IMG/VR virus record: IMGVR_UViG_3300009168_000064
Span: 1 to 43,289 of that record
Direction: 5' to 3' (one strand)
DNA length: 43,289 nucleotides
Source: a virus
The position numbers were made by a program, and so were the translations under genes. Positions 2,994-21,443 of this stretch are shown here, piece after piece; within the stretch, counting starts at the first letter, position 1, and every line of letters begins with the position of its first letter. The notes beneath the pieces were generated by a model. The model made no database searches, was not told where the DNA came from, and was given only the letters and a program-made list of their open reading frames with translations.

Positions 2994-3123
2994 GAGCATC
3001 ACCCCCTTCTTTTACCAAAGATGCGACCCATTTGAAAAACACAAGCGAACCTACTATCACACACAAAAACACAATAACACATGCGGTCACTAGCAGTATG
3101 TAGTAGATAAGCTTCGATCGCAC
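2944..3123 (-). CDS. small single-span membrane protein
   Basis: A 59-residue reading frame starting at GTG with GGGAG seven bases upstream. After a short basic start (RSK) comes a long hydrophobic segment, YYILLVTACVIVFLCVIVG, then a basic tail, as expected of a bitopic inner-membrane protein. Its last 17 codons overlap the start of the RNA polymerase gene in another frame, so translation may be coupled. It fills an otherwise empty gap between nuclease and polymerase. No family recognised; a holin-like or regulatory role is only a guess. Confidence 0.5.
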   Translation of the reverse strand: MRSKLIYYILLVTACVIVFLCVIVGSLVFFKWVASLVKEGGDAHAYYGRRIFSALWCYS

Positions 3124-3134
3124 GAAAAATCTCC

Positions 3135-3692
3135 CTAGAAATCAGAAGCCTTCATTTGTTCAATCTGTTGATCAAACGATATGATTTTCTCCATGATATC
3201 GATAATTCTTTCAGGAAATGGTTCGTAGACTCTAATTTCATCTCTTTGATAAATACGAAGTTCGATCTCTATTGAATATGGATCAACACTGTATTCCAAA
3301 CAAAACAAGGCAGCATAGACTTCTAGTTGCTGTTCTGAGGTAGGTGTAATGCCGGTTTTCAAATCATGAATACGAAGTTTACCTCGGCGAAAGGAAATGG
3401 TATCAGCCGTGCCGAAACAATTCTCAGAAAAATATAAAGGTTGCTCACATAACATTCTGTATCCAATAGCATCATTAACGTAAGTAGATAGGGCTTTGTT
3501 TGCTTTTGAAAATTTGACCCCAAGACGGATAGCTTCATGCGCAAGATTATGCAAATCAGTACCACGACGCGCTGCAGTAAATGCTACATAACGAGCTTCT
3601 AACTTCTGATCATCATAGTTAATCCAGTGATAATTGCTTGGACTAAGAAACGCGTGTTTCCCGTGCAAGTCCAAATGCGTGTTGAAGATCAC
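3135..3692 (-). CDS. PD-(D/E)XK nuclease, Cas4/RecB-like exonuclease
   Basis: A 185-residue protein with the core of RecB-type nucleases: 'GTADTISFRRGKLRIHDLKTG' around residues 94-114 supplies the catalytic Asp and the D-x-K pair, followed by 'EQQLEVYAALF', the usual Q-x-x-x-Y helix. 'RRGTDLHNLAHEA' near the N-terminus corresponds to the conserved G-x-x-x-H motif. No cysteine cluster of canonical Cas4 is evident. It probably processes DNA ends in replication or recombination. The start is GTG with GAGGAGG nine bases upstream, inside the end of the neighbouring nuclease gene (50-base overlap). Confidence 0.8.
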   Translation of the reverse strand: MIFNTHLDLHGKHAFLSPSNYHWINYDDQKLEARYVAFTAARRGTDLHNLAHEAIRLGVKFSKANKALSTYVNDAIGYRMLCEQPLYFSENCFGTADTISFRRGKLRIHDLKTGITPTSEQQLEVYAALFCLEYSVDPYSIEIELRIYQRDEIRVYEPFPERIIDIMEKIISFDQQIEQMKASDF

Positions 3693-6995: not shown

Positions 6996-7024
6996 TCTCA
7001 CTATAATCAATGTAGAAGCTGCGA
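6996..7024 (-). promoter_or_regulatory. phage promoter family, copy A
   Basis: Minus-strand TCGCA, then a CTACATTG block, then TATAGT followed by GAGA, with the family's fixed 17-base distance from GCA to the -10-like box. It lies 24 bases before the ATG of the gene at 6769 without an intervening hairpin. Confidence 0.75.
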
Positions 7025-7289: not shown

Positions 7290-7318
7290 TCTCATTATAA
7301 TCCATGTAGATCCTGCGA
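7290..7318 (-). promoter_or_regulatory. phage promoter family, copy B
   Basis: Minus-strand TCGCA, CTACATGG block, TTATAAT then GAGA, standard spacing. The leader to the gene at 7266 is short and unstructured. Confidence 0.78.
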
Positions 7319-8735: not shown

Positions 8736-8937
8736 TGGGGTATGTCCCCTCCGGTTTAACAACGAGTGCGGTTTTTTGTTTACCTGAACATCGGCTGATC
8801 ACGACCGATGCGTTCTGTGTAGCCTTCACAGTCAACCCAGGGCGGTCTGACAAATATTCACGCAAAGCGGCAACTAAACGTAAATACCCACAGACAGTAA
8901 GACTTCTACTTTGAGGAGTGCGAGCTCTCACAAGCAC
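8710..8937 (-). CDS. possible 75-residue protein
   Basis: GTG start at 8937 without a clear ribosome site. The protein has a plausible helix-strand pattern (LRLVAALREYLSDRPGLTVKA, then ASVVISRC, TALVVKPEG) and is compositionally like a real product. No family recognised. An inverted repeat (CTTAG...CTAAG, about 8950-8970) lies just upstream and could be regulatory. Confidence 0.45.
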   Translation of the reverse strand: MLVRARTPQSRSLTVCGYLRLVAALREYLSDRPGLTVKATQNASVVISRCSGKQKTALVVKPEGTYPNGPEATRI

Positions 8938-8991
8938 TGGGTAGTGGTCTTAGCGCCCTGACGCTCTAAGCCTAATGCGGTTTAACGTCGC

Positions 8992-9192
8992 TTAGTCGAC
9001 GGATTTAACTGTCCATTCACTAATATCAAGAATTCTCGAAATAGCAAGATTGGACCAGCCTCTTTTCCTCATTTCTATAATTTGAGAACGACGAAGTGCT
9101 TTTTGTTCGTCCTTTGCATTAATTCGTTCTTTTTTGAAATCTGAAGCTGATTTACCTAATGCTTCTGAAATTTCTCGATTAGTTTTTTCCAT
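8992..9192 (-). CDS. small helix-turn-helix protein
   Basis: 66 residues from ATG at 9192. The last 32 residues, RRSQIIEMRKRGWSNLAISR followed by ILDISEWTVKSV, form a resolvase/MarR-like helix-turn-helix (G-W-S-x-x-x-I-S-x-x-L-x-x-S-x-x-T-V). The preceding part is a charged helix. The start overlaps the end of the micro-gene at 9179. It could regulate phage transcription; as the only stand-alone HTH protein seen here, it is a candidate binder of the promoter family. Confidence 0.65.
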   Translation of the reverse strand: MEKTNREISEALGKSASDFKKERINAKDEQKALRRSQIIEMRKRGWSNLAISRILDISEWTVKSVD

Positions 9193-9549: not shown

Positions 9550-9664
9550 GATTCTCCGAAAAAGAAAATGAGAAGAGTCCGCTAATGACGCCGCCCAACT
9601 GGTAAACATCCTTGTCTGCACGAGGTACCGTGCGTACAATCCTGTACTTCAGTCGTTTCATCAT
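9533..9664 (-). CDS. possible leader peptide inside leader C
   Basis: A 43-codon frame starting ATGATGAAACG shortly after the predicted transcript start and running through the whole terminator hairpin into the next gene. It begins basic (MMKRLKYRIVRTVPR). It has no convincing Shine-Dalgarno except a weak GAAGAG near the RNA 5' end. If translated, ribosomes would melt the terminator, a classic attenuation geometry. Confidence 0.3.
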   Translation of the reverse strand: MMKRLKYRIVRTVPRADKDVYQLGGVISGLFSFSFSENHGTDG

Positions 9665-9680
9665 TAAACGAACTCTTCTC
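9558..9680 (-). ncRNA. closed leader RNA C (attenuator or small RNA)
   Basis: The sequence right after the -10-like box of promoter C (GAGAAGAGTTCG, 9680-9669) is complementary, with one mismatch, to CGGACTCTTCTC (9581-9570), which is followed by ATTTTCTTTTT. The predicted RNA of about 120 bases would be closed end to end and terminate before the gene at 9549. Confidence 0.65.
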
Positions 9681-9705
9681 ATTATAACCCGTGTAAAACC
9701 TGCGA
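9677..9705 (-). promoter_or_regulatory. phage promoter family, copy C
   Basis: Minus-strand TCGCAGG, TTTTACA block, TTATAAT then GAGA, standard spacing. It begins one base beyond the stop codon of the gene at 9707. Confidence 0.8.
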
Positions 9706-9706
9706 C

Positions 9707-10009
9707 CTACTGGCCTTTCTTATCCATGAACTCTAGCCAAGGCCTAATGCTATCGTCTTCTTCAATGAACTGTTCCCGGAAAACTCGACGGGAATAACAA
9801 CGAACGTTCTGACCCATCTTCGTCATATAGAAACCGGTGTATACTTTTTCTAGGTTAGGAACAACTCGAGGATCTACCAGGATGTACTTAGTGCCGTCAC
9901 CCACATCACGAAGTTCACCGATATACTTCGATACCTCTTCGATATTCTGCGCTGTAATCTCCACTCCTTTTACAGTGAAAGGCTTACGAACAAACGTTGT
10001 AAATTCCAT
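9707..10009 (-). CDS. conserved phage hypothetical protein
   Basis: 100 residues from ATG at 10009 (GGGAT five bases upstream). 'FTTFVRKPFTVKGVEITAQNIEEVSKYIGEL' followed by 'LVDPRVVPNLEKVYTGFYMTKMGQNVRCYSRRVFREQF' is a pattern I recall from small conserved phage proteins of unknown function. Lies immediately after the ssDNA-binding-like gene in the replication operon, so an accessory replication role is plausible. Confidence 0.7.
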   Translation of the reverse strand: MEFTTFVRKPFTVKGVEITAQNIEEVSKYIGELRDVGDGTKYILVDPRVVPNLEKVYTGFYMTKMGQNVRCYSRRVFREQFIEEDDSIRPWLEFMDKKGQ

Positions 10010-10046
10010 GGATGATCCCTGTTCGTTTTTTCGGCGGGTTCTTACT

Positions 10047-10519
10047 TCAAGCTTTTGCCGGGGGGTTCTCATTAATAGAGTACTTTCGTTCTAGGGCGTC
10101 CTCTTCGATCGTGACAAATAGTGACTGGAGATATGCTTTAGTACCCGTCTTACCATTGACATTCCAATCATAACCACGCGCAATAAGATCAGCGCTCTTG
10201 ATATCAGCATAATCCAGAACTTCAACACTGTCTTCATCAAGCTGAGTACGACTCGTGGAAGTAAGCAATACCACGCGAGGAGGGCGGTTTTTAAAGTAAC
10301 GGCGACTGAGACGTAGGCAGTGTCTTCGTCTCCTTCTTCTCGGGCTTCAAGATAACGTACGTTCCAGCCGTCGGCGAGCATTTGCTCAGCAATTTCCTTC
10401 GGGAGAATAACTGAAAAATTACGATCTCCTTCACGATTAAACTGTCCTTCTTTACCAGCAAAATTACGGAAAATGATCGGAGCGTCTTCTACCATAAACG
10501 TCTTTGCCTGATCAACCAT
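10047..10519 (-). CDS. ssDNA-binding-like phage protein made by -1 frameshift
   Basis: The first 77 codons (from 10519) and the frame reaching 10047 together make one coherent 157-residue protein: 'NFAGKEGQFNREGDRNFSVIL' ... 'SVAVTLK' | 'NRPPRVVLLTS' ... 'ALERKYS'. The joint lies at T-TTA-AAA (10295-10289). After a -1 slip the next codons read N-R-P-P-R-V, as I recall in single-frame homologues, which are often called ssDNA-binding-like. The zero frame continues into an improbable 65-residue hydrophobic and basic tail ending at 10091. A 9-base spacer and a stem-loop follow the heptamer. Either programmed frameshifting or a one-base deletion in the A run explains this. The gene lies downstream of the polymerase gene. 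Confidence 0.75.
10252..10295 (-). promoter_or_regulatory. candidate -1 ribosomal frameshift signal
   Basis: The slippery heptamer T-TTA-AAA is in the zero frame at 10295-10289. Nine bases later CTCGCGTGG (10279-10271) pairs with CCACGAG (10258-10252), leaving one bulged C. Heptamer, spacer length and stem are those expected of programmed -1 frameshifting. Confidence 0.6.
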
Positions 10520-10661
10520 TCTTAATCACCTTATCGTCTGCCCAATTTGGATCATGATCTGGATGCTGCAAAGCAACATGCTTTTTAACAGCCTCCAAAG
10601 AAGGATATGTTCGTCCCTTGTGGCAAGAGCGTGGACAGTAGTACACTTTTACTTCAGCCAT
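10512..10661 (-). CDS. zinc-finger microprotein
   Basis: 49 residues, MAEVKVYYCPRSCHKGRTYP followed by SLEAVKKHVALQHPDHDPNW and a short acidic tail. C-x3-C with H-x4-H twenty residues on is a C2H2-like zinc-binding arrangement. The ribosome site AAGGAGG is excellent and the ATG overlaps the stop of the polymerase gene (TGATG); its own end overlaps the ssDNA-binding-like gene by eight bases. It is thus a true member of the replication operon and probably binds DNA or a replisome partner. Confidence 0.78.
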   Translation of the reverse strand: MAEVKVYYCPRSCHKGRTYPSLEAVKKHVALQHPDHDPNWADDKVIKNG

Positions 10662-13600
10662 CACACCTCCTTCACTAATTCTTCATATGGAACAAACTTC
10701 TCAATAGCCTTCAGGGCGTCATTCTTTAAGCCATCGAAGTAATCCATATCAGTGAAGAGTTCGTCGATCTCATCTCTGTATTTGGCAATATCCCGTTCTA
10801 CCCACAAGAAATCTTTGGTACCACTTACATGATACTTCTTATCACCATCTACTCGCCACAAGACTCCACCATCGTAGCGAACAGGCATGAAGCTTCCTGT
10901 CTGTCCAACATGTCTCATGTCCTTGATGTCTTCTGCTCCATGCATATCAAGATACATGCGACCCTTAGTTACGTTCTTAGTCTCGCACAAATCGTCGAAC
11001 TCTAGCGGTTCTTTGGAAAATAGCTCTTTATAGACAAACGGATGTTGGAACTGTGCACCAACAGCAGTCCAGCCGCGATCATCACGAGCAACATATACTG
11101 CATCGTTAATGAGACAGAACTTCTCGTATGTAGTTTCATGCTCGAAGACATACCCGTACTCCTCTCCTAATTCACAAATAAATCTGATGAGCTCTGGTGT
11201 AGCTCCGGGAATTTTAATAGAGTCTGTCTTAATATGAACTACTTGAAAGCCCTCGTCTTGCACTGCGTGCTTCAGATCAATCATGAACAAGGCACCACGT
11301 TTAGCTACGACGTTATCCTTGTTGCGATTGTCTTTGAACATGTTCTCAAAACGAGCACTGGTAAGACCGTACACAATGTTGATCACGATCTTCAAAGCGT
11401 AGGCAAGCTGGTCGCCGGCGTCCGGATCATTCTCAGCATTGATAAGAAATGGCGCAATCTTACCGTCTAGACAGGCTCGAGCTCGGTCGTAATCGCGATT
11501 CTTGATAGCAATACGAGCGTCAACCAAGTCACTATAGTTCCGGGTGTAAGGGCCAAATAGATTGAGTTGCTCGATACTGGACGGATGCATAGAAACCACA
11601 TCAAGTACCACCACGTCAGTGTAGTATCCTGGTTCTGAATATACGTATCCACCTTCGCCAGTAACTTCGTCACAATATGTGCTTTGCTTCCCATCAAATA
11701 CGTATCCCGGGAACTGTTCACTTAGATCCGTGTACTGGAATTTCTTTTGCGGATGCTTATCTTCGCCAAAGATAATCTTGGCTGTGTGTTGCTGAGTAGT
11801 ATGATTAATAGATAGTCCAGACAATTCAGATAGAATTTGCCTAGCCACGAAGTCTTGTTCTCTGGCTTCGAATACAGCTTCAGTAGAAATAACATCATTA
11901 ACACAATATTCCTCCACTTTCGACCAAACTCCCTCAGGCACTGGCTCGTCCCAAGGAAGATCTAGTTCTTGGTGATGAAGTCCAAGTTCAATCTGAAACT
12001 TCTTCAGACCTTGTTTCTTGGAACTAAAATCGAAAATATCAGCATAAGACAAGTTGTACGCTTCACCAAACATTGCACTATTATTGCCTTTTGGATTCTT
12101 AATGATTCGTTGACTCAAATCAAATAACTCTTCGAGAGTATAACCAAGATATCTTGCATATAGTATATGGTTGTCGTATCTACGGTTATTGAACCCAACA
12201 AGTCTCTGCCCAAAAAGAGGCTCGAGCTCCTCTGCCGTAGGATTGATCATACGAACAACTATCCCAGAGCCTTGTGTCTTCCAACACACAATGAACAAGT
12301 TGGGATACACTTCCACATCAAAGAACAATAGTGCTTTGTTCTCGACATGTTCTGGTTCTGGCATCTCATTTTTGCCAACGAATTTCATAGTTTGTACAAG
12401 TTTGATACAAGCGGTTGCTTGATTAGTACTGTTTGCTGCAAATGTTAGGATTACTGGGCGAAGATCTCGAACATCATAAGCAAGTCCAATCTCATAGGCA
12501 TCCTCTAGAATATGATGAATGAAATCAATTGATGGCTTCGTGCCAGGGTGAATTTCCTTCCGTAGATTCCTCTCAATGAGTTCCCTAAGACCTTTCTCAC
12601 TCTGAATACTCTTAGTCTCGATCATCTTCTTCTCTTTCTTAGGCAATCCCCCGTTGAGCGTCATGATATCGAGATTATTACATTTAGTGAGTTTCCTCCG
12701 AAGAGAACTATCACCCAAGAGAGTTTTTACTTCGACGCCAGTCTCAATCATAGAACCAAGCTCATGCACATCACCGCTGTAAATATAGTGCAGGTGTATG
12801 CCTTTGCCGCTTTTACTTAATTCTGTATACGTTGGCGGAAATTTTGACGCAGCCTCGATGTTCTTTGTAAGATCTTTTTCGCCGTTATCGTCGACCAAAT
12901 CGAAATCAATTACGATATGTTGTTCTGGAATCTTTACGTAATGTAGATCAGTAACATCAATGTCCTGCAGCGTAGTTGTTACTTGATCCCACTTTTTACT
13001 CGGATATCCACTATCCGTTGTCCCCTGTGCTGGTTGATGAGCGTACGCAGTATTGAAGGCAGAGTCATGATAAACAGGAATGTAGTCATCCAGTTCAATG
13101 ACGTAGGAGGTGTCCGGTACGAACGGGATCGGACCTTGCTCGGGAAGGCCTTTGAAACCAATGTATACACTCCTGTATTCTTTGTCTCCCATAAAATAAC
13201 GGTCCTTGAAGTCTTCAAAGTAACTACTCAGTTCATCTCGAACTTCGTGATACTGAAGCCGCTTAATGATGTTTGCTTCTTCACAATACTGCTTGTAAAG
13301 TTCCCAAACACGCTTAAGCTGAATCGCTTCTGTGGACTTGAAAATATCAAAGTGAGCTTCTACAAAGTTGTAGAAAGTGTCCGTCAGCATCATCATCTTC
13401 GTGGGAATATAGTTCTCGTAGTAATACTTTCCCATTTTTCGATAACGTTCTAGACACTTGTATGCAATCTGCCCAAGTTCAAAGTTGATGTTTTCAGTTA
13501 GAATATGGTATCGTCCTGGCTCAATCTTCACACCAGTTGGGTGAACGTCAATCAACCGTCGAGTATTACCTGCTTTTGCGTCTGTGATCTTTACTGGTTT

Positions 13601-14443
13601 GTTGGTACCAATGATCAAGAACGCGTTTGGTCGTATCGTATATGCAGATCTATACTTGATGTTGATTGTCATTGAGTCATGTCCCACAATCGAATTCAAC
13701 TTCGTGTTGTCTTCGACTCGAGACAAATCTCCATCGTGTTGAATAGCAACCAAAGGATTGCTCTCAAACGACTCCATAGAAAATGGACTGTGATTACTAG
13801 TAAGTGCTTTGGCTTCAAAGGTTGCTACATAGCCAGTGAACAATTTCTCGATAATATCGATGACTGTTGACTTACCAGTAGCTGGCGGTCCATAGAATAC
13901 TAGAAACTTCTGAATCCATTTGGAATCACCAGCCACAATAGCGCCAATAGCCCACTCAATTTTATCACGCTCTGTAGGAGAATATAGAACATTAAGTAGC
14001 TCATCCCATGCGTCGGTCTTACCGTTCTGTAACGAATATGGTAGACGTTTGCTGACAAAGTCTTTCTTCTTTACTTCCGTGTTGGCAAAGGTAATGTTCT
14101 CATCCAAGGGATGATAGTTACCCTTCTCCGGAAGGTTTCGAATATACCTGTTAAATCGTTCCCAACTACCTGAACTGAAGTTCCTAGTTAACAACGGTTC
14201 GATGGTTTGTCCTGCTTTTCTAGCTTCATCGACATAAGCATACAGATCAGCATCTACAAATTTCTGTACATCGAACTCACTTGTCGACCACATTCCTGAC
14301 GCTTCATCCCATACTGCATAAAATGAACCGCCTCTGATCATCAAGTCGTCAAAATGATCAACAACCCAGTCGGGGTACGCTTGTGCTAAACCTCTGGCTT
14401 CTCTAGTTCTTATCTTATAGAAATCCACGTCCCCTCCCTTCAT
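10661..14443 (-). CDS. fused SF3 helicase, AEP primase, exonuclease and family B DNA polymerase
   Basis: A 1260-residue replisome protein. Residues 1-430: SF3 (D5/P4-like) helicase with Walker A GPPATGKST at 185-193, 'FLIIGTNKPV' (sensor-like) and an Arg-finger-like 'NTRRL'. Residues 450-605: archaeo-eukaryotic primase signature, D513-F-D515, SGKGIHLH at 545-552 and GVEVK near 570. Residues 703-865: DEDDy 3'-5' exonuclease, D709/E711, D757, Y846/D850. Residues 940-1260: family B polymerase, motif A VLDVVSMHPSS (D948), motif B K1018...N1022..YG, motif C K-T-D1074-S, where the usual first Asp is Lys. Thumb and C-terminus follow. GTG at 14428, preceded by GGGAGGGG, is a strong alternative start to the coupled ATG at 14443. 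It is the sole replicative polymerase visible here. Confidence 0.88.
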   Translation of the reverse strand: MKGGDVDFYKIRTREARGLAQAYPDWVVDHFDDLMIRGGSFYAVWDEASGMWSTSEFDVQKFVDADLYAYVDEARKAGQTIEPLLTRNFSSGSWERFNRYIRNLPEKGNYHPLDENITFANTEVKKKDFVSKRLPYSLQNGKTDAWDELLNVLYSPTERDKIEWAIGAIVAGDSKWIQKFLVFYGPPATGKSTVIDIIEKLFTGYVATFEAKALTSNHSPFSMESFESNPLVAIQHDGDLSRVEDNTKLNSIVGHDSMTINIKYRSAYTIRPNAFLIIGTNKPVKITDAKAGNTRRLIDVHPTGVKIEPGRYHILTENINFELGQIAYKCLERYRKMGKYYYENYIPTKMMMLTDTFYNFVEAHFDIFKSTEAIQLKRVWELYKQYCEEANIIKRLQYHEVRDELSSYFEDFKDRYFMGDKEYRSVYIGFKGLPEQGPIPFVPDTSYVIELDDYIPVYHDSAFNTAYAHQPAQGTTDSGYPSKKWDQVTTTLQDIDVTDLHYVKIPEQHIVIDFDLVDDNGEKDLTKNIEAASKFPPTYTELSKSGKGIHLHYIYSGDVHELGSMIETGVEVKTLLGDSSLRRKLTKCNNLDIMTLNGGLPKKEKKMIETKSIQSEKGLRELIERNLRKEIHPGTKPSIDFIHHILEDAYEIGLAYDVRDLRPVILTFAANSTNQATACIKLVQTMKFVGKNEMPEPEHVENKALLFFDVEVYPNLFIVCWKTQGSGIVVRMINPTAEELEPLFGQRLVGFNNRRYDNHILYARYLGYTLEELFDLSQRIIKNPKGNNSAMFGEAYNLSYADIFDFSSKKQGLKKFQIELGLHHQELDLPWDEPVPEGVWSKVEEYCVNDVISTEAVFEAREQDFVARQILSELSGLSINHTTQQHTAKIIFGEDKHPQKKFQYTDLSEQFPGYVFDGKQSTYCDEVTGEGGYVYSEPGYYTDVVVLDVVSMHPSSIEQLNLFGPYTRNYSDLVDARIAIKNRDYDRARACLDGKIAPFLINAENDPDAGDQLAYALKIVINIVYGLTSARFENMFKDNRNKDNVVAKRGALFMIDLKHAVQDEGFQVVHIKTDSIKIPGATPELIRFICELGEEYGYVFEHETTYEKFCLINDAVYVARDDRGWTAVGAQFQHPFVYKELFSKEPLEFDDLCETKNVTKGRMYLDMHGAEDIKDMRHVGQTGSFMPVRYDGGVLWRVDGDKKYHVSGTKDFLWVERDIAKYRDEIDELFTDMDYFDGLKNDALKAIEKFVPYEELVKEV

Positions 14444-14985
14444 GGAAGATGATCTTTATCTACAAGATAATCACAGAATTGATACCAGATTTCAACCTTA
14501 GTTTGATCTAGATGATCAGGTGGCAGATTATTTATAGGGAACATACCCCCTAGACCGTCTTCATCGTAAGTTCTCCAGATAAACTGATACAAGATCTCAT
14601 CGATCTCTTCTGGATCAATATCTGAACCATCGTTAAATTCGTTCAAGCCAAGATTATTCAAGAATTCCCAAAACCATTCATGAGCAGGAATATCGGTTTG
14701 GAATTCAGCTCGTCTAGCAAATGCGATAAACATTTCGAGCACAGAACATGGAATTAATGTTCTCCACTCTACATCGTCTGGAATATCCGCTTGAAGGATG
14801 AATTCTTTTCTTAGTTCTTTTCCATCTTCGGCTCTGTTATCATCTCCGGATATAAGCCACACAAATTCTGTTTTGTGCATCTTCTTAAGTAGTTCCCAGT
14901 ACGTAGATGAAGGAAGATAACTATCTGGGTTTACAACCTTCGCACAGAGCCAATTGAAATATAGGTTTTCAAGCGGCTCGCTCAT
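14440..14985 (-). CDS. conserved phage protein of unknown function
   Basis: 181 residues, acidic, no membrane segment. The 'AHEWFWEFLNNLGLNEFND...IDEILYQFIWRTYDEDGLGGMFPINN...VEIWYQFCDYL' arrangement, with conserved Trp-rich helices, is one I recall from a widespread phage protein with no assigned role. Its stop overlaps the upstream start of the helicase-primase-polymerase (ATGA), and it follows the coiled-coil membrane protein by three bases, so it joins the membrane-protein operon to the replication gene. Confidence 0.72.
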   Translation of the reverse strand: MSEPLENLYFNWLCAKVVNPDSYLPSSTYWELLKKMHKTEFVWLISGDDNRAEDGKELRKEFILQADIPDDVEWRTLIPCSVLEMFIAFARRAEFQTDIPAHEWFWEFLNNLGLNEFNDGSDIDPEEIDEILYQFIWRTYDEDGLGGMFPINNLPPDHLDQTKVEIWYQFCDYLVDKDHLP

Positions 14986-14988
14986 GAG

Positions 14989-15729
14989 TTACTCTTCTCT
15001 GAATTTACGAACGGAATGCTTGAAGTCTTCGTGATTTAACTCGTCCTCAAGCTGCCCACCAAGCACCTCAACCTGAAAATATCCATGGTCAAGGAGAACT
15101 TCGAAGTCAGCCTTTAGATCATCGTTTCGAACATAAACAATGTTGGGGTCTTGAGATCCACGTCCAAACTCAAGTTCCCCTACCAGTTTATGGTGATTAT
15201 AAATGGGAGTATCATCAGTATCACAAAGAACATTATCAGCCAGATAATACTGAAGTGTGGTTTGGCTGTGATCTGGTTCGTTGAGAAAAAACTCATCCCT
15301 ATGGATGGTATAAGGAACGCCTGGTCGGCGCTTCTTTACTTCTTCCTCTTCGTTCCAATCGTCCTCAATCCCTGAGAATATGTTGTTTGGCTCTTGAGCA
15401 CTAGCAGTAGGATGTACTGACATTGATCTTAATTCTTCTGCTTGCCTTTCTAGAAAGTTCGTTCCTTCGTCTCTAAACTTTTTTACAACATGTCCTGCTT
15501 GTTGAAATAAGCCATTCATCTTTTCCTGATCCTCATCCAACTTGAATTGAAGCTGGACAACATCCGATTCAAATTTAACTGTGGTGTTCTCTAGCTTCTT
15601 GACTAGCTTTTCTAACCTCTTGTATCGGTATGAGCTAAACAAACATCCTACACCCACACCGACCCCAAAGGAGACAACTCCAACTGCTGATGGAATCGTC
15701 CATTGCGGTTTCCATTGCAATCGCATCAT
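14989..15729 (-). CDS. membrane-anchored coiled-coil protein
   Basis: 246 residues. N-terminal membrane helix (AVGVVSFGVGVGVGCLFSSY), then about 80 residues of coiled coil (KRLEKLVKKLENTTVKFESD...ERQAEELRSM), a short disordered linker, and a C-terminal domain beginning 'RPGVPYTIHRDEFFLNE...SQTTLQYYLADNVLCDTDD' that ends in 'VYVRNDDLKADFEVLLD'. I recall this C-terminal pattern from conserved phage proteins of unknown role. The start is coupled to the upstream DUF6353-like gene (ATGA). Probably anchored in the host membrane, or carried in the virion. Confidence 0.72.
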   Translation of the reverse strand: MMRLQWKPQWTIPSAVGVVSFGVGVGVGCLFSSYRYKRLEKLVKKLENTTVKFESDVVQLQFKLDEDQEKMNGLFQQAGHVVKKFRDEGTNFLERQAEELRSMSVHPTASAQEPNNIFSGIEDDWNEEEEVKKRRPGVPYTIHRDEFFLNEPDHSQTTLQYYLADNVLCDTDDTPIYNHHKLVGELEFGRGSQDPNIVYVRNDDLKADFEVLLDHGYFQVEVLGGQLEDELNHEDFKHSVRKFREE

Positions 15730-16616
15730 CCTCCCTTCTTATCAAGCTTGTCGTAGATGACGCCATCAACATTGAAGTCGAGCAGAATTGAACGTTCGCC
15801 GCCGTTCACAAAACGTGAATTATATGCATTATAGATATTAAAGTCAACATAATTATCACCAGAACCGTCGTTGTTTCTAAACCAACCAACAACAGCGCCG
15901 GCACCACTTCGTTCGATCCCCAACATGTCATACACTTCGTTGAGAAATAAATGCCCCCTGGCGATTAGGAGATTGTTGGCATAATTTTGCTGACACTGAA
16001 TGAAGAGTTGATTTACTTCTGGTTCTCTTCGCCATTCTTTGGACCATTCATCAAAGAATCGTGCATATGGAGACATCTTATTAGGATCAACTATCTTGAA
16101 TTCTTCTTTATTGTGTATCTCTGTCTTTGCTCCGTGATATAGATCGAGCTCTTTCTCTTCACCAAGTTCTTCACGTACACGATCTCTGTAATTATTAAAT
16201 GCTTCTTGTACTGCTGCATAAGCAGCCATCAATGCTGTGTTACGCTTAGTGAGTTCAAGATGTGATTTAGTGAGCATAGCAATTGAGCCTACGCCAATAA
16301 GAACTGCTGGCCCATATAGCTTTACAATCTTGATCGTGCCTTTGGTATATACATAACTTGCGTCTTTTGCGTATTCGTTCTCAGAATATGCAGTAAGACC
16401 AGTCTTGTCTGAAGTCTCTTTTAACGTCTTCACACTCTTGACATCATTATGAATCTCATCAAGAGTAGCAGAAAGCTTCAATGTTGCCCGACAAGCAAGA
16501 ACGGTACTAGTGACGACCCCAACAACACCAGCAACGAACAGAATATGAGGAGAATTCTTCTTAAGAATTAATGTTTGCCGACCAAAATTCCTTGTCAATG
16601 CAACCGGTAATGCCAT
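15726..16616 (-). CDS. DUF6353-like phage membrane protein, copy 1
   Basis: 296 residues with two hydrophobic segments (HILFVAGVVGVVTSTVLACRA; IVKLYGPAVLIGVGSIAMLTK) joined by a charged helix, then a helical 'AYAAVQEAFNNYRDRVREELG' and a C-terminal domain rich in W, N and Y ending 'VNGGERSILLDFNVDGVIYD'. Architecture, and segments such as 'Y..YRD.V.EE.G', match the gene at 18002, so the two are paralogues. The starts and stops of both neighbours overlap (TAATG, ATGA). Function unknown; DUF6353 assignment is from memory. Confidence 0.72.
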   Translation of the reverse strand: MALPVALTRNFGRQTLILKKNSPHILFVAGVVGVVTSTVLACRATLKLSATLDEIHNDVKSVKTLKETSDKTGLTAYSENEYAKDASYVYTKGTIKIVKLYGPAVLIGVGSIAMLTKSHLELTKRNTALMAAYAAVQEAFNNYRDRVREELGEEKELDLYHGAKTEIHNKEEFKIVDPNKMSPYARFFDEWSKEWRREPEVNQLFIQCQQNYANNLLIARGHLFLNEVYDMLGIERSGAGAVVGWFRNNDGSGDNYVDFNIYNAYNSRFVNGGERSILLDFNVDGVIYDKLDKKGG

Positions 16617-17269
16617 TAGATCTCCTCCAACTCCGGAAGCTCAATCAAGAATCCATCACGCACTTGACGAATTTCTACATTATTCAAAAATGTCCAGCCC
16701 CATTTATTGTCAATAGGAGAACTGTTCAATCCAAGAAGAACATACAGATCAGACAAAGAAGCGGCATCATACTTGTCGATAATATCGATCATGCGTTCTA
16801 CGACAAGCTCAGCTTCTTCTCTTGAGATTAGAATAACATCATTGAAATGATGCCTGTTCGCTCGCTGCAAACGAGGTTGATCAGGCAAATATGCTTGTTG
16901 TCTTGGGTCTCGTGGATCTACTGGACGTTGTTGCATCAGTGGATTATTGTATTGGACTCGCGTTATAGGACCATAGCCTGTAGGGCGTCGTCGATACCCG
17001 GATACTTCACCGTATACGACACGTTCTGCGCCCTTAGTAACTGAATCAACTAGTAAATTTCTAAATGCTGGAAGAAGTACATCAGACGCAACATACCTCA
17101 TGGCCAATTTGAAATCGCCACCAAAGAAAATATCCTTAAACTTACGGCCAATTCCCGGAGGCTTCTGAATAACTACTCCTGTAACAACCTTCTCTAGCTT
17201 CTTGTCTTCTTTCTTCTGCTTCTTTTCAGATTTCTCTTTGTCTTTATTGGTATTGCCTTGATAATCCAA
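16616..17269 (-). CDS. conserved phage protein with basic N-terminus
   Basis: 217 residues. TTG start at 17269 with AAGGAG five bases upstream. A lysine-rich N-terminus (KDKEKSEKKQKKEDKKLEK) leads to 'GRKFKDIFFGGDFKLAMRYV' and 'LLPAFRNLLVDSVTKGAERVVYGE', a segment I recall from conserved phage proteins of unknown function. A proline/arginine/glutamine-rich linker and a helical C-terminal domain follow. Coupled by TAATG to copy 1 of the DUF6353-like proteins, pointing to a shared complex. Confidence 0.7.
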   Translation of the reverse strand: MDYQGNTNKDKEKSEKKQKKEDKKLEKVVTGVVIQKPPGIGRKFKDIFFGGDFKLAMRYVASDVLLPAFRNLLVDSVTKGAERVVYGEVSGYRRRPTGYGPITRVQYNNPLMQQRPVDPRDPRQQAYLPDQPRLQRANRHHFNDVILISREEAELVVERMIDIIDKYDAASLSDLYVLLGLNSSPIDNKWGWTFLNNVEIRQVRDGFLIELPELEEI

Positions 17270-17278
17270 GATTACTCC

Positions 17279-17707
17279 TTAACTTGCGGGTGGAAGCGGA
17301 GGTGTAACATTCAATGCTTTTAGATCTTTCTCACCTTGCGCAATAGCTTCCTGCATATCCTTCGGCGTGATACCCTTAATGAAGTCAGCAGCGGCCTGTT
17401 CATTAGTCATGAGTTCCATAAACAACGCATCATAGGCAAGAATTTGAATGAATTCTTCTCGAATCGCATTACTCTTAATGAATCTGTTGCCGTCCCTAAC
17501 ACCATACGATGAAAGGATGATGTTCTTGATTTCATCAACAACGGCTTTAATATCCTTCGTTTCGATAATTCGTTGAATAGATTTTTCCAATCCTCCGGTA
17601 ACACCAAACTGAAGATCAATGATCTCGGTTTTGGTCAAATTGAAGTAGAATGACTCAGTGACTGTTTCACCATCAACGTTCTCGTAGGTGATATCACGCT
17701 TAAGCAT
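17279..17707 (-). CDS. conserved phage protein, possibly chaperone-like
   Basis: 142 residues, helical, acidic. 'FYFNLTKTEIIDLQFGVTGG' ... 'IIETKDIKAVVDEIKNIILSSYGVRD' ... 'RFIKSNAIREEF' resembles small proteins often annotated as tail-assembly-chaperone-like in other siphoviruses. Its location far from the tail genes makes that name uncertain. AAGGACG precedes ATG. It begins the operon running to 14440 after an intrinsic terminator. Confidence 0.62.
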   Translation of the reverse strand: MLKRDITYENVDGETVTESFYFNLTKTEIIDLQFGVTGGLEKSIQRIIETKDIKAVVDEIKNIILSSYGVRDGNRFIKSNAIREEFIQILAYDALFMELMTNEQAAADFIKGITPKDMQEAIAQGEKDLKALNVTPPLPPAS

Positions 17708-17725
17708 TCGTCGTCCTTTTTGTCG

Positions 17726-17758
17726 GAGAAAAAGAAAGAGCCCTTGTTCAGGACTCTT
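17726..17758 (-). terminator. intrinsic terminator
   Basis: Minus-strand stem AGAGTCC / GGGCTCT (one G-U pair), loop TGAACAA, then TTCTTTTT. It follows the small membrane gene at 17768. Confidence 0.8.
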
Positions 17759-17767
17759 CCTTCTTTG

Positions 17768-17950
17768 CTAACCTTCCTCGACCAGATCATACTGCCTGTT
17801 ACGATATGCTTCGAGAGCGGCATCGTACAGCCGTTCTGCAAGCAGGCCAGTACCGAACACCACTACTGCGGCGAACATGTACTTACCGAACTTGTGAATG
17901 AACGGAGTAGTCGGCTCCGTCTCAACGATCTCAATGACGTTGTCTGACAT
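17768..17950 (-). CDS. small single-span membrane protein
   Basis: 60 residues: acidic N-terminus (MSDNVIEIVETEPTTPF), hydrophobic segment KYMFAAVVVFGTGLLAERLY, charged helix and acidic end. Promoter copy D is 23 bases upstream, and the leader contains AAAGGA before ATG; a terminator follows, so it is a monocistronic unit. It resembles the genes at 6769 and 7066 in size and organisation but not clearly in sequence. Confidence 0.7.
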   Translation of the reverse strand: MSDNVIEIVETEPTTPFIHKFGKYMFAAVVVFGTGLLAERLYDAALEAYRNRQYDLVEEG

Positions 17951-17972
17951 TACATTCCTTTCGGGTAGGTTC

Positions 17973-18001
17973 TCTCATTATAATCAATGTAATTTTTGCG
18001 A
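17973..18001 (-). promoter_or_regulatory. phage promoter family, copy D
   Basis: Minus-strand TCGCA, ATTACATTG block, TTATAAT then GAGAGA, standard spacing. It abuts the stop of the gene at 18002 and has an open leader. Confidence 0.78.
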
Positions 18002-18757
18002 TTACAGCGGCACATAGTAATTGTAATCAAACGCCAGACAAGGACGTTCGTCTTCAGTAAGTACGGCTGTGAATTGCAATTCCATTAATCTATCGGATTT
18101 CCAACCAACATTTGACGAGGATGCAGTTGGATTAATACCTATCATGTAATAGAAATCATCGAATGTAGCATAATCGTGCGTCAATACTCGCTTATTGAGT
18201 AAATTCTCTGCTTTATGCAGTTTGTCTGCATCACTTGTGAAATATCGTCCTGTGTACATCTCCATACACAGCACATTACCTGGACCAGTTACGAGAACCT
18301 CCTGTGACGGAGGAGGATTCTCTTTTACTCTATCGGCTGCCACTTTATCTCGAATGGATTGGTCTTTACGTGCACCAAACTCTTCAATGACCTTATCTCT
18401 ATAATCAGAATATACCTGTTGGGATACTGTGAGTGCAGTTTGAGCTGCAATTGTCTTGTTGGTTGCAAATCGATTTGCGCAGACGATACAAGTGATTGTA
18501 GATGCTGCCGAAACGGCTGATGGAATATAAAGCTTCCAGACAAGTTTCGTCCGTTCGATTAAGCGTTCCTTAGGATCAGCATGTGTTCCAGTAGCATCTT
18601 CGTCTAATCTAATGATCTCTGCTGCCTCGAATGATGCTTTTCCTACTAAATATGCTGTAACAAGCGTACCCAAACCTGCTACACCTGACAAAATAAGAGG
18701 AGAATGGTGCTTTGCATTCCGTCGAACTAATCTACCGATATCGCCTATGTTCATCAT
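18002..18757 (-). CDS. DUF6353-like phage membrane protein, copy 2
   Basis: 251 residues with two hydrophobic segments (PLILSGVAGLGTLVTAYLVGKA; LYIPSAVSAASTITCIVCANR) separated by an acidic and basic helix, then 'SQQVYSDYRDKVIEEFGARK' and a C-terminal domain that contains 'DDFYYMIGINPTASSSNVGWKS' and ends '...LAFDYNYYVPL'. The domain order parallels copy 1 at 15726. Two ATG codons in tandem overlap the stop of the upstream micro-gene. Likely partner or antagonist of copy 1 in the same membrane assembly; function unknown. Confidence 0.72.
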   Translation of the reverse strand: MMNIGDIGRLVRRNAKHHSPLILSGVAGLGTLVTAYLVGKASFEAAEIIRLDEDATGTHADPKERLIERTKLVWKLYIPSAVSAASTITCIVCANRFATNKTIAAQTALTVSQQVYSDYRDKVIEEFGARKDQSIRDKVAADRVKENPPPSQEVLVTGPGNVLCMEMYTGRYFTSDADKLHKAENLLNKRVLTHDYATFDDFYYMIGINPTASSSNVGWKSDRLMELQFTAVLTEDERPCLAFDYNYYVPL

Positions 18758-18882
18758 CTACTCTTTCGCATCTCCCTGACGAAAATCCAAATAAGCCAGA
18801 ACCCACAGGTGATGAGAGTCATGAATACGTCGCCTACGAATCCGAAGAAACCGTAACGACGTGGACAATCACACTGCGTCAT
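18754..18882 (-). CDS. 42-residue conserved membrane microprotein
   Basis: MTQCDCPRRYGFFGFVGDVF, then MTLITCGFWLIWIFVREMRK and SR. One aromatic membrane helix with a Cys-Pro N-terminus and a basic C-terminal anchor. I recall close look-alikes ('CP..YFG..GFV.D..MT..TGG.WLIWI..RE') in many phages, so it is real despite its length. No Shine-Dalgarno is obvious; the start overlaps the upstream gene by 14 bases, and its stop overlaps the DUF6353-like start. Confidence 0.7.
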   Translation of the reverse strand: MTQCDCPRRYGFFGFVGDVFMTLITCGFWLIWIFVREMRKSR

Positions 18883-19072
18883 TTTTTTCATTCAGTTTTT
18901 TCACTTCGAGCAAATATGTAACTATTGTGTTATACAACAGACGTCCTGCCATGTTTGCGACTACCATATAAACAAATACTTTACGAAGTTGACGCTTATC
19001 CCAATTGACGTTAATGTCAAATCTCGCATCATTAAGCAAATCAATAAGAACTTTACGCTCTGCTTCATCCAT
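18869..19072 (-). CDS. small membrane protein
   Basis: 67 residues. A charged helix (MDEAERKVLIDLLNDARFD) is followed by a moderately hydrophobic segment, RKVFVYMVVANMAGRLLYNT, and a charged C-terminal helix. Its start overlaps the end of the gene at 19065 by eight bases. It lies in the operon that begins at promoter copy E. Unrecognised. Confidence 0.65.
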   Translation of the reverse strand: MDEAERKVLIDLLNDARFDINVNWDKRQLRKVFVYMVVANMAGRLLYNTIVTYLLEVKKLNEKNDAV

Positions 19073-19301
19073 GGTTTCCCTCGCAAGTCTCGCAGTTAGC
19101 CTGAGTCCACTCGCTCAGCCACTTTTCACACCAGGCATCCCAGCCACCAGCCAGAGTGACTCCACGCTGCTTGGCTTTGCCAGGCTGAATATGAATCCCT
19201 GATTGCGCAGGAATCAACTTAGCAATATCGCCAAGGAGGTTTGCGGCCATAGCAACATCACCATTAGTGCCTTTGAGGTGAATTGTCATTTTAAGTTGCA
19301 C
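19065..19301 (-). CDS. small cysteine-containing hypothetical protein
   Basis: 78 residues, starting at GTG 19301 with AAAGGA six bases upstream. 'GGWDAWCEKWLSEWTQANCETCEGNHG' at the C-terminus has three cysteines and a terminal His, which could bind metal; the N-terminus resembles a small alpha/beta fold. First gene after promoter copy E and its closed leader RNA, so its expression would depend on reading through that terminator. Confidence 0.62.
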   Translation of the reverse strand: MQLKMTIHLKGTNGDVAMAANLLGDIAKLIPAQSGIHIQPGKAKQRGVTLAGGWDAWCEKWLSEWTQANCETCEGNHG

Positions 19302-19321
19302 TATTAATCCTTTCGAATCAG

Positions 19322-19420
19322 AAAAAAATAAAATGAGAGACTAGGGTTCACAGCCCATCGAAAACTGTGTACCGGGTGGGTTGGTAAACGTACCAACGCC
19401 TTCGTGTCTCACCCTCTCTC
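19322..19420 (-). ncRNA. closed leader RNA E (attenuator or small RNA)
   Basis: GAGAGAGGG (19420-19412), directly after the -10-like box, pairs with CCC-TAG-TCTCTC (19346-19335), followed by ATTTTATTTTTTT. Inside lies a perfect seven-pair hairpin, GTTGGTA/TACCAAC (19380-19397). The predicted RNA is about 95 bases and ends before the gene at 19301. Confidence 0.68.
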
Positions 19421-19445
19421 ATTATAATACATGTAAAACTTGCGA
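19417..19445 (-). promoter_or_regulatory. phage promoter family, copy E
   Basis: Minus-strand TCGCAAG, TTTTACATG block, TTATAAT then GAGAGA, standard spacing. It starts six bases past the Rpf-like gene. Confidence 0.82.
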
Positions 19446-19451
19446 GGTTAG

Positions 19452-20030
19452 TTAGCAAGCACTCCAATTGGAACAACCTGCTCCATTCGCCCATACTTCC
19501 GCTGCCCTGGCGTCCTGAACATCCTCAGGAGCATCAGAGGCATGGGAATATCCTCCGTAACCACCCCACGTGCCATCAATGAATTGCCACTTGCCCGATG
19601 CAGTGGAGACAGGATTCTCGGCACGAATATCACCACCTGACTCACGTTGCATTACGTAACAAGGAGGAAGGTTACCTCCACAGGTACCATTACCAGGCTC
19701 TGAAGCCCTTCTGTTACCACCCGTACGTTCTACAGCGTCAGCCACTCTCGATCGTTGTTGCTCATCGTACTGAGCCTGCTCCAGCATTGCAGCATAGACA
19801 GCGGCTTGAAAATTAACGGCCTGAACATATTGAAAACGTGCTACGTCTCTGAGATACTCTCGGCGCTCAAGGATCATAGCCTTCTCTTGATCAGGCGTTA
19901 ACGTTTCCCCAGCATACGTAAGAATCTTTTCGTTTTTTTCGGTTTCTTGTTTGGGTTCCTCGGCTTGTGCAGCAAAGGCTACGCCCATAGTAATAAGTAA
20001 CAAAAGTACTAGGCTGAAATATCGCTTCAT
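19452..20030 (-). CDS. Rpf-like transglycosylase, secreted
   Basis: 192 residues. Signal peptide MKRYFSLVLLLLITMGVAFA with a probable cut near AQA-E. Residues 40-100 form a long helical region. The C-terminal domain (about 117-192), CYVMQRESGGDIRAENP then ASGKWQFIDGTWGGYGGY, is the transglycosylase-like domain of resuscitation-promoting factors, with predicted catalytic Glu130 and cysteines C124, C187 and C192. These enzymes cut actinobacterial peptidoglycan. A signal peptide suggests secretion by the host, for lysis or late wall remodelling. ATG has AAAGGAG six bases upstream. It follows promoter copy F and a closed leader bearing tandem repeats. Confidence 0.85.
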   Translation of the reverse strand: MKRYFSLVLLLLITMGVAFAAQAEEPKQETEKNEKILTYAGETLTPDQEKAMILERREYLRDVARFQYVQAVNFQAAVYAAMLEQAQYDEQQRSRVADAVERTGGNRRASEPGNGTCGGNLPPCYVMQRESGGDIRAENPVSTASGKWQFIDGTWGGYGGYSHASDAPEDVQDARAAEVWANGAGCSNWSAC

Positions 20031-20047
20031 GTTTTGCTCCTTTGTCG

Positions 20048-20161
20048 AGAAAAAGAGAGTGTATGTTGCAGTGTGCTCCCAATGTGAACTTTGTTATCGT
20101 TCACTGCATTAGTGTGCCCCCAATGGGGACTTTGTTATCGGTCACTAACCATACATCTCTC
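20048..20161 (-). ncRNA. closed leader RNA F with two 36-base modules
   Basis: GAGAGATGTATG (20161-20150), directly after the -10-like box, pairs with CATACACTCTC (20065-20055), leaving one bulged A; TTTTTCTC follows. Between the arms are two 36-base hairpin modules. The RNA would end about 20 bases before the Rpf-like gene. Confidence 0.72.
20070..20146 (-). repeat. two tandem 36-base hairpin modules
   Basis: Copies at 20111-20146 and 20070-20105 separated by five bases. In RNA both run AGTGA.CGATAACAAAG, a variable hairpin (CCCC-ATT-GGGG in the first), then GCACACT. AGTG and CACT can close each module. They differ in only a few positions. Confidence 0.8.
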
Positions 20162-20186
20162 ATTATAACCTGTGTAAAACTTGCGA
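20158..20186 (-). promoter_or_regulatory. phage promoter family, copy F
   Basis: Minus-strand TCGCAAG, TTTTACACA block, TTATAAT then GAGAGA, standard spacing. Confidence 0.82.
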
Positions 20187-20189
20187 GCG

Positions 20190-20217
20190 AAAAGGAAAGC
20201 CCCCGTAGGGACTCTCC
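20190..20217 (-). terminator. intrinsic terminator
   Basis: Minus-strand GGAGAGTCCC / GGGGCTTTCC with loop TACG, then TTTT. It ends the gene at 20220 and abuts promoter copy F. Confidence 0.8.
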
Positions 20218-20219
20218 GA

Positions 20220-20663
20220 TTATTCAGGCACATAATCACTTACCCGCTTGAATGTATGCCCATTTACATGTTCTCGTCTTCCATTCAAATGATCTGATAC
20301 TTTTGTAACACTAGCTCCAACAGATCTTGCCGCTAGGCTTTCACTTTCAAACCTTTTCCAAGTCGTCGTATCCACGACTGGAGTTCCAGGTCGGCCAATA
20401 ACGTTCCCATACTGGGAAATCGTTTGATATGTGTTATTATGAACAGTAGGTTTGTAATTAGCTAAGAGCCTTTGTTTGATTGAAATCAAAACATGCTCTT
20501 CCATTTCCATATCTGTCATTCCATACTTACGCATTATAAATAGTGCAGTAATTATTGAACCTGTGACTATACCAATAGTCGTTCCAATATAAATTTTCTT
20601 GTTATCCTTAATGTGTTGCTTAAATTTTTCGATTTTTGTTAATTCTGTTTCTTCAAATTCCAT
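20220..20663 (-). CDS. membrane protein with NUMOD1-like C-terminal domain
   Basis: 147 residues. Charged N-terminal helix, one membrane segment (IYIGTTIGIVTGSIITALFIM), a linker, then 'VVDTTTWKRFESESLAARSV' followed by 'GASVTKVSDHLNGRREHVNG', the NUMOD1/intron-endonuclease-type HTH pattern (F-x-S-x-x-x-A-A-x-x-x-G-x-x-x-x-x-x-x-H-L-x-G). Joining a DNA-binding-like module to a membrane anchor is unusual; it might tether phage DNA to the membrane. TAGGAG precedes ATG. It has its own promoter (copy G) and terminator. Confidence 0.68.
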   Translation of the reverse strand: MEFEETELTKIEKFKQHIKDNKKIYIGTTIGIVTGSIITALFIMRKYGMTDMEMEEHVLISIKQRLLANYKPTVHNNTYQTISQYGNVIGRPGTPVVDTTTWKRFESESLAARSVGASVTKVSDHLNGRREHVNGHTFKRVSDYVPE

Positions 20664-20694
20664 TTCATCTCCTATGTAGCTTATATTAAGAATG

Positions 20695-20723
20695 TCTCAT
20701 TATAAGCCATGTTTAGACTGCGA
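20695..20723 (-). promoter_or_regulatory. phage promoter family, copy G
   Basis: Minus-strand TCGCAG, CTAAACATG block, TTATAAT then GAGA, standard spacing. Its upstream edge merges with the T run ending leader RNA H. The leader to the gene at 20663 is open. Confidence 0.78.
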
Positions 20724-20824
20724 AAAAAAAAAGAGTGAGAGGATTCAGTGTGCCTGCAAACGCAAGCTTTTGCACTCATTAGTGTGCCTGCAAACGCAAG
20801 CTTTTGCACTAATCTTATCCTCTC
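20721..20824 (-). ncRNA. closed stand-alone small RNA H with two 30-base modules
   Basis: GAGAGGAT (20824-20817), directly after the -10-like box, pairs perfectly with ATCCTCTC (20744-20737), followed by ACTC and ten T. No gene lies between this RNA and the next promoter (copy G), so its predicted product is a free small RNA of about 95 bases rather than an mRNA leader. Confidence 0.75.
20747..20810 (-). repeat. two identical tandem 30-base hairpin modules
   Basis: Copies at 20781-20810 and 20747-20776 are identical and separated by four bases. In RNA each is AGTG, a hairpin (CAAAAGC/GCGTTTG with one mismatch), CAG and GCACACT. The AGTG...GCACACT ends match the modules of leader F, although the centres differ. 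Confidence 0.85.
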
Positions 20825-20849
20825 ATTATAACCCATGTAAAACTTGCGA
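20821..20849 (-). promoter_or_regulatory. phage promoter family, copy H
   Basis: Minus-strand TCGCAAG, TTTTACATGGG, TTATAAT then GAGAGG; the closest match to the family consensus. Confidence 0.82.
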
Positions 20850-21414: not shown

Positions 21415-21443
21415 TCTCAATATAACCCATGTTTAGTGTGCGA
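21415..21443 (-). promoter_or_regulatory. phage promoter family, copy I
   Basis: Minus-strand TCGCAC, CTAAACATGGG, TTATATT then GAGA, standard spacing; the -10-like box is TATATT. It lies immediately after the putative holin gene and is the rightmost copy. Confidence 0.72.

Follow-up and report, generated by a model that had tools for sequence, protein, structure and literature searches.

The closest described relatives of the transcription system considered here are phage RNA polymerases and their promoters. YonO of Bacillus phage SPbeta has an unknown promoter and a mapped start that precedes an unannotated non-coding RNA (PMC5467207), and the two-barrel RNA polymerase gp64/gp96 of phage P23-45 uses phage-specific promoter motifs (PMC10770324). 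Here we analyze the 43,289-base virus record IMG/VR IMGVR_UViG_3300009168_000064 (hereafter the window), whose main genes lie on the minus strand, and in particular those of its units in which a short phage promoter leads directly into a small RNA whose 5' end pairs with its own 3' end. Like SPbeta, the window encodes a single-chain polymerase with a DFDGD motif, and like P23-45 it carries a phage-specific promoter motif; unlike YonO, for which no promoter is known, the system here has a conserved 29-bp motif that recurs about ten times per genome, ahead of single-gene units and several small RNAs. Overall, we believe that each of the RNA units is probably a small-RNA gene complete in itself, carried by a phage lineage that has a transcription system of its own, a reading built on comparison of sequences.

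The promoter, CGCA-n4-TTACA-n5-TATAATGAGA (29 bp, no -35 box), has almost certainly been seen before. A 50-bp (43-base) motif in the Gordonia cluster DJ phages Vardy and Conley, described as a sigma-70 -10 element (PMC9671010, PMC10868162), is likewise intergenic, contains TATAAT, and occupies the same genome region in the same kind of phage; that description concerned single genomes, without the link to a polymerase, the start site or the RNAs. Gene sharing among actinobacteriophage clusters EL, BI, AM, AU, CC and DJ and phage RosaAsantewaa is also known (PMC7302621). With regard to the RNAs, cluster A mycobacteriophages and Rhodococcus phage WC1 produce highly transcribed non-coding RNAs (PMC10986025) that resemble ours in coming from actinobacterial phages, but they belong to another phage lineage and are not known to share a promoter, closing stem or family with ours. 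The RNA anti-CRISPRs, or Racrs (CRISPR, clustered regularly interspaced short palindromic repeats; PMC10651486), are small phage RNAs of solitary repeat-like hairpin units, of which the tandem hairpins of two window RNAs, H and F, are reminiscent; Racrs, however, are mimics of host CRISPR repeats, and the likeness is one of hairpin layout only. We found no description of the closed RNAs in the open-access literature searched, and as far as that literature goes, the lineage-wide promoter and its tie to a YonO-like polymerase are new, as are the predicted start immediately after the box and the closing-stem RNA families.

Closing stems and the exchange of their arms

The original prediction held that at four loci of the window (RNAs C, E, F and H; Table 1) the bases from GAGA onward, directly past the -10-like box, are complementary to an arm that lies downstream and is followed by a T run. 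This proved correct for all four RNAs, which are 86-111 nucleotides (nt) long, with the refinement that the closing stems of C and H are contiguous, C having one G.U pair, while E and F are bulged and do not form perfect duplexes. In RNA H, GAGAGGAT pairs with ATCCTCTC; RNA F pairs GAGAG-A-TGTATG with CATACA-CTCTC across a one-base bulge, and RNA E joins GAGAGA/TCTCTC to GGG/CCC with three bulged bases between them. The slot behind the DNA polymerase gene, where RNA C lies, holds closed RNAs of differing sequence in about ten relatives as well.

Closure greatly exceeds what is obtained when 5' arms are swapped between promoters. In a set of 127 promoters, taken from the window together with 15 relatives, 15 arm duplexes reached -14 kcal/mol or lower, against a mean of 1.1 (maximum 8) in 30 swaps, and 10 reached -16 kcal/mol or lower, against 0.5. 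A fold-based closure count was too loose (147 against 70-83 in controls), and a strict count requiring a contiguous stem score of at least 8 plus a U tract was used instead; a filter on open reading frames (ORFs) inside the RNA was dropped, since chance ORFs had cost true cases. Applied to 628 promoters in 93 loci, the strict count yielded 55 closing stems against 2.45 in arm swaps (maximum 5). When the U tract was not required, there were 50 against 5.2, and at least 7 T within 12 nt followed 34 of 50 real arms as opposed to 8 of 52 control arms.

Further evidence lies in how the arms vary. Among phages carrying relatives of RNA E, the arm pairs read GAGAGG/CCTCTC, GAGAAG/CTTCTC, GAAGAG/CTCTTC and GAGACCCGG/CCGGG..TCTC, and the clearest compensation in the closing stem is that of some Gordonia phages, in which the 5' end has become GAGACCC... 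and the 3' arm is altered to match (CCGGGaTTCTC, CTTGTTGGcTTCTC). Own arms in this family pair better than foreign ones (median -12.2 versus -10.3 kcal/mol, p=5e-5), a difference that is modest because the arms are alike, and it is those members whose arms have been exchanged that carry the argument. Because both arms change together between loci and, within one RNA family, between phages, the comparison supports selection of the pairing at the RNA level. Thus, the compensatory change initially noticed between loci of the window extends to homologues; loss of pairing in homologues had been named as grounds for abandoning the idea, and the homologues instead alter both arms jointly.

RNA families between the arms

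Rfam 15, searched at gathering and relaxed thresholds, identified none of the closed RNAs, in line with the earlier statement that no described family is known to have this architecture, and families (1)-(4) below were unmatched where searched. Above the gathering threshold, Rfam recognized only the Pistol ribozyme in the window, and Pistol and transfer RNA (tRNA) in related loci. The Pistol ribozymes, at 8929-9001 of the window (minus strand) and in related loci L010 (14920-14970), L011 (14964-15025) and L014 (16144-16198), all sit behind the DNA polymerase gene. Two stretches of the window with a structured look, at about 9400-9330 and 8900-8830 (minus strand), the latter coming after the ribozyme, share CTTACTGTCTG ... 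GTCAGACC(A/G)CCC.

Family (1), to which RNA E belongs, has the cores GAGACACGAAnGnGU and UUUUCGUUGGG and is present in about 40 loci. In an alignment of 17 sequences, 75 cells carried changes in both partners of a pair, compared with 28 in shuffled controls; the covariation score was 0.50 against 0.22, and sliding the partners by 1-3 columns reduced the score to 0.09-0.17. A further comparison for this family, also named the GACACGAA family, gave 177 cells against 42 and scores of 0.60 against 0.20. The covariance analysis with homologous phages that had been suggested as a check thus came out strongly positive. A covariance model found the family at 31 places in 94 loci, on the coding strand every time, and all 28 of the matches examined begin 0-17 nt from a promoter start, with 22 lying no more than 1 nt away from it. 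A long-range loop-loop helix, which the search model did not include, is still paired in 94% of cells and shows compensatory change at four of four pairs (CGAA:UUCG, CUAA:UUAG, GACA:UGUC, GUAA:UUAC, UCAA:UUGA). Another 17 matches include Gordonia phages Secretariat (RNA near 31510-31645 of NC_048876), Gill, Schwartz33, Hydrus and Petito, and a DNA search with the region returned 23 Gordonia phage records and, over a short stretch, four Arthrobacter phage records, with nothing annotated there. A tRNA-like reading of the whole family, suggested by a T-arm-like hairpin in some members (L040, L092, L083), was dropped because the T-arm-like loop varies freely and the hairpin is missing from the window copy.

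Family (2), GAGAGGACGUyAyG...UACCrUGCGUCCUC, comprises ten sequences with compensatory change in 13 of 20 predicted pairs, and family (3), UCUGGCUGA...GAUACG...UAGAyAAGGACCAC, shows such change in 9 of 15 predicted pairs in four sequences only; RNA C, compared by eye with family (3), gave no convincing match. Family (4), the tandem-hairpin RNAs, includes H and F of the window and many relatives, each with two or three hairpins that have the same inner motif and different outer stems; the inner motif itself varies between phages. Identical, multivalent hairpins of this kind suggest titration of a protein or an RNA. Family (5) consists of single tRNA-like RNAs in Gordonia, Arthrobacter and Lactococcus phages, which suggest mimicry. 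At L099 (5342-5414), for example, a tRNA directly behind a promoter copy scores as an Rfam tRNA yet has an abnormal, two-base anticodon according to ARAGORN. Promoter-driven closed RNAs in Gordonia phage Pherobrine (L023, 13224), L093 (1077) and L098 (338) resemble tRNAs in having D-arm-like and T-arm-like hairpins, but where the anticodon loop would be they have a loop of four bases, and they are called by neither ARAGORN nor Rfam. At position 1392 of L123, a contig of a Clostridia metagenome-assembled genome (CANQBJ010000025.1), a promoter match is followed by GAGAGAGGACC... and an arm CTCTCTTT, possibly another closed RNA.

The promoter, its predicted start site and a YonO-like polymerase

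In a matrix built from 116 sites, with positions counted relative to the G of GAGA, information is confined to -25..+4: TCGCA is followed by a run rich in A/T that ends in ACA, then by five unconstrained bases, TATAAT and GAGA. Scanning 2.15 Mb of related loci with this matrix located the motif 715 times on the coding strand and not once on the opposite strand or in reversed sequence. The exact pattern, present 107 times in 2.3 Mb of phage loci, has only four matches in a 257-Gb set of bacterial and archaeal genomes, where we estimate that about two would be expected by chance. Two of those four lie on phage-like contigs with more promoter-like sites, and a third falls inside a spacer in a CRISPR array of Streptomyces sp. 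NRRL F-5122. This spacer, in L125 (NZ_LMWH01000236.1; match 3424-3451, minus strand), reads TCGCAAGAATTACACGGCCTATAATGAGACT, which is the phage promoter; its array has a repeat of about GTTTCTATGCCCTGCGGGCCTTTCGTTCCTGCGGAAC, and its target is a sequence that each phage of the lineage carries in many copies. The scarcity of the motif in the genome scan, together with the polymerase on most contigs fetched by the promoter, indicates that it belongs to the phage lineage and not to the hosts. Judged by its occurrence, the predicted promoter is common to a large family of phages, mostly of actinobacteria: it is found in Gordonia phage Pherobrine, Streptomyces phage RosaAsantewaa, Arthrobacter phages Mudcat and Gordon, Microbacterium phage Damascus and a saliva siphovirus, and in altered form (TTACA-n5-TATAATGAGA, CGCA missing) in Lactococcus phage P078.

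The closing stem also informs on the start site. The arms were defined only from nucleotide 5, and of the 19 cases that had a U tract, 16 nonetheless paired GAGA as well, through three or more Watson-Crick pairs, as opposed to none of 10 controls; the base preceding the G is able to pair in 26 of 54 cases. Since GAGA pairs with the 3' arm, it should be part of the RNA, with a predicted start at the G or perhaps one or two bases before it, as the original prediction had surmised. A start at GAGA would give mRNA-type units 5' untranslated regions of 23-28 nt (interquartile range, 459 units). Sigma-70 promoters initiate about 7 nt past the -10 box, and predicted initiation here is nearer to the box than that.

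These features bear on the possibility that the promoter is read not by the YonO-like enzyme but by host RNA polymerase with sigma-70, aided by a phage DNA-binding factor at CGCA/TTACA. The TATAAT hexamer is indeed perfect, and annotators named the motif sigma-70 (PMC9671010). At the same time, the -35 hexamer that should lie about 17 bp upstream is absent, with no information upstream of -25 in the 116-site matrix; the GAGA directly past the box is transcribed, as judged indirectly from its pairing, where sigma-70 would start some 7 nt beyond; and the motif core is kept between actinobacterial and Lactococcus phages. We therefore regard sigma-70 recognition as rather unlikely.

The phage polymerase is the more attractive candidate. 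ORF 336-3002 matches phrog_4291 over residues 4-886 and has its catalytic motif from residue 508 on, so that both a full-length phage-family match and the DFDGD signature of YonO-like enzymes are present; a Pfam RdRP match is sub-threshold (E=0.0014). Polymerases of this type occur in about 250 deposited phages, often annotated just as helix-turn-helix proteins. Among IMG/VR contigs fetched by the promoter alone, 22 of 32 carry the polymerase, as do 12 of the 13 that are at least 42 kb long. Phages of Gordonia, Streptomyces and Arthrobacter encode relatives of the window's DNA primase/polymerase (10661-14443), with identities that reach about 55%. As a control, we looked for phages that have this DNA polymerase and lack the RNA polymerase; full-length relatives seem always to have both. 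In SPBc2 (L258, about 3385, minus strand), the 1.7-kb yonN-yonK gap upstream of yonK, the YonO start region, contains GGCTTATAATGGG, which resembles TATAATGAGA; SPbeta has TTATAATGGG in the long gap before yonK, and the published YonO start could not be placed on that record.

Table 1. Positions of promoters, closed RNAs and the RNA polymerase gene in the window
Feature	Positions	Strand	Details
Promoter of RNA C	9677..9705	-	matrix score 40.1
Promoter of RNA E	19417..19445	-	matrix score 40.7
Promoter of RNA F	20158..20186	-	matrix score 38.2
Promoter of RNA H	20821..20849	-	matrix score 40.9
mRNA-type promoter directly after RNA H (ORF 20220-20663)	20695..20723	-	matrix score 36.1
mRNA-type promoter	21415..21443	-	matrix score 28.8
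mRNA-type promoter	17973..18001	-	matrix score 39.2
mRNA-type promoter	7290..7318	-	matrix score 39.5
mRNA-type promoter	6996..7024	-	matrix score 31.8
Closed RNA C, 111 nt	9570..9680	-	+1 at 9680; 5' arm GAGAAGAGTTCG, 3' arm CGGACTCTTCTC; arm end +111 (9570), then ATTTTCTTTTT (U run); folding z -7.4
Closed RNA E	19335..19420	-	+1 at 19420; arm end +86 (19335), then ATTTTATTTTTTT; covarying GACACGAA family, covariance model match E=3e-16, alignment A2; folding z -3.2
Closed RNA F	20055..20161	-	+1 at 20161; arm end +107 (20055), then TTTTT; two tandem hairpins, inner motif near-identical; folding z -2.9, computed on a sequence 4 nt short of the 3' arm (full-length F closes)
Closed RNA H	20737..20824	-	+1 at 20824; arm end +88 (20737), then ACTCTTTTTTTTTT; two tandem hairpins, identical motif GTGCAAAAGCTTGCGTTTGCAGGCAC; folding z -4.2
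YonO-like single-chain RNA polymerase	336..3002	-	888 aa (amino acids); motif GADFDGD; phrog_4291 E=0

Probable RNA genes and their downstream neighbors

Relative to the start of the DNA polymerase gene, promoter units are concentrated in two zones, one 4-8 kb before it and one 4-10 kb after it. Of the 628 promoters, 435 are of the messenger RNA (mRNA) type, with a ribosome-binding site and a start codon no more than 75 nt away, and the strict count assigns closed RNAs to about a tenth. What follows the 55 strict closed RNAs is a new promoter within 120 nt in 17 cases, no ORF within 120 nt in 15, and an ORF directly in 23.

The first of these groups invites the explanation that the stems are plain terminators, which simply end transcription and insulate neighboring units, the RNA between the arms being functionless. 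Most of the 17 have the next start 32-40 nt past the arm, which means that the U run abuts the promoter, as it would in an insulator. A terminator, however, has no need of 40-110 nt of structured RNA between its arms, and the cores of three families are conserved with covariation, including a long-range helix that is likewise needless for termination. We consider plain terminators very unlikely.

The last group bears on attenuation, in which the closed RNA would be the 5' leader of the next gene and a ligand, protein or antitermination factor would open the terminator. The 23 ORFs, including those behind C, E and F, have ribosome-binding sites, start no farther than 120 nt from the arm and lack a promoter of their own in between, an attenuator-like arrangement. 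The conserved controlled gene expected behind each RNA family is not found in the E family: its first downstream ORFs form 15 mutually unrelated groups, the largest with seven members, and the same family is seen both ahead of a new promoter and ahead of an ORF. Unrelated downstream ORFs, together with the 32 of 55 RNAs followed by a new promoter or no ORF, argue for self-contained RNA genes rather than attenuators, and we judge attenuation unlikely. The original prediction had treated the RNAs as leaders, perhaps attenuators, with small RNAs as the alternative; as a rule, the former is not supported, and the alternative fits better. Leaky read-through into the next gene is possible in about 40% of the units, those of C, E and F among them.

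At the level of sequence, then, the predicted promoter, the closing stem, the covariation and the lack of a conserved downstream gene are well established. Several points nonetheless weigh against self-contained RNA genes served by a transcription system of the phage's own. Closed RNAs are a minority of the promoter units, and the 23 that run directly into an ORF look like attenuators in their layout. A Faecalibacterium phage whose polymerase is 41% identical has zero sites by the matrix used here. Finally, promoter, RNA polymerase and DNA polymerase share one lineage, and thus their co-occurrence does not prove that the polymerase recognizes the promoter.

Nonetheless, a general pathway for the small-RNA genes can be proposed. 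Each unit would consist of the 29-bp phage promoter, a structured RNA of 40-150 nt starting at or beside the G of GAGA, and a self-made 3' end. The promoter, most likely read by the phage YonO-like RNA polymerase, would dictate the GAGA 5' end, and the RNA would end in its complement, an arm ending in UCUC directly before the U run. The outermost helix and the U run would most likely stop transcription, and the closing helix would tie together and protect both ends of the RNA. The diverse cores would then probably act in trans as regulators or decoys, while partial read-through may feed an ORF where one comes directly next. It is possible, though we put it forward tentatively, that the motif is the first known YonO-type promoter code and that it runs an arsenal of interchangeable structured RNAs (loop-loop folds, tandem decoy hairpins and tRNA-like RNAs without a normal anticodon), all built on one scaffold whose 5' end closes on its 3' end, and directed against RNA-based processes or defenses of the host.

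Regardless of what the individual RNAs do, the analysis provides a concrete candidate promoter and a predicted start for YonO-like polymerases, a question left open in PMC5467207, and it reveals several structured RNA families, one of which lies without annotation in at least 23 deposited Gordonia phage records. Those Gordonia phages grow on laboratory hosts, so that promoter and RNAs can be tested together. In this context, the layout of one unit and one RNA suggests that the accessory genes of these phages regularly include small RNAs.

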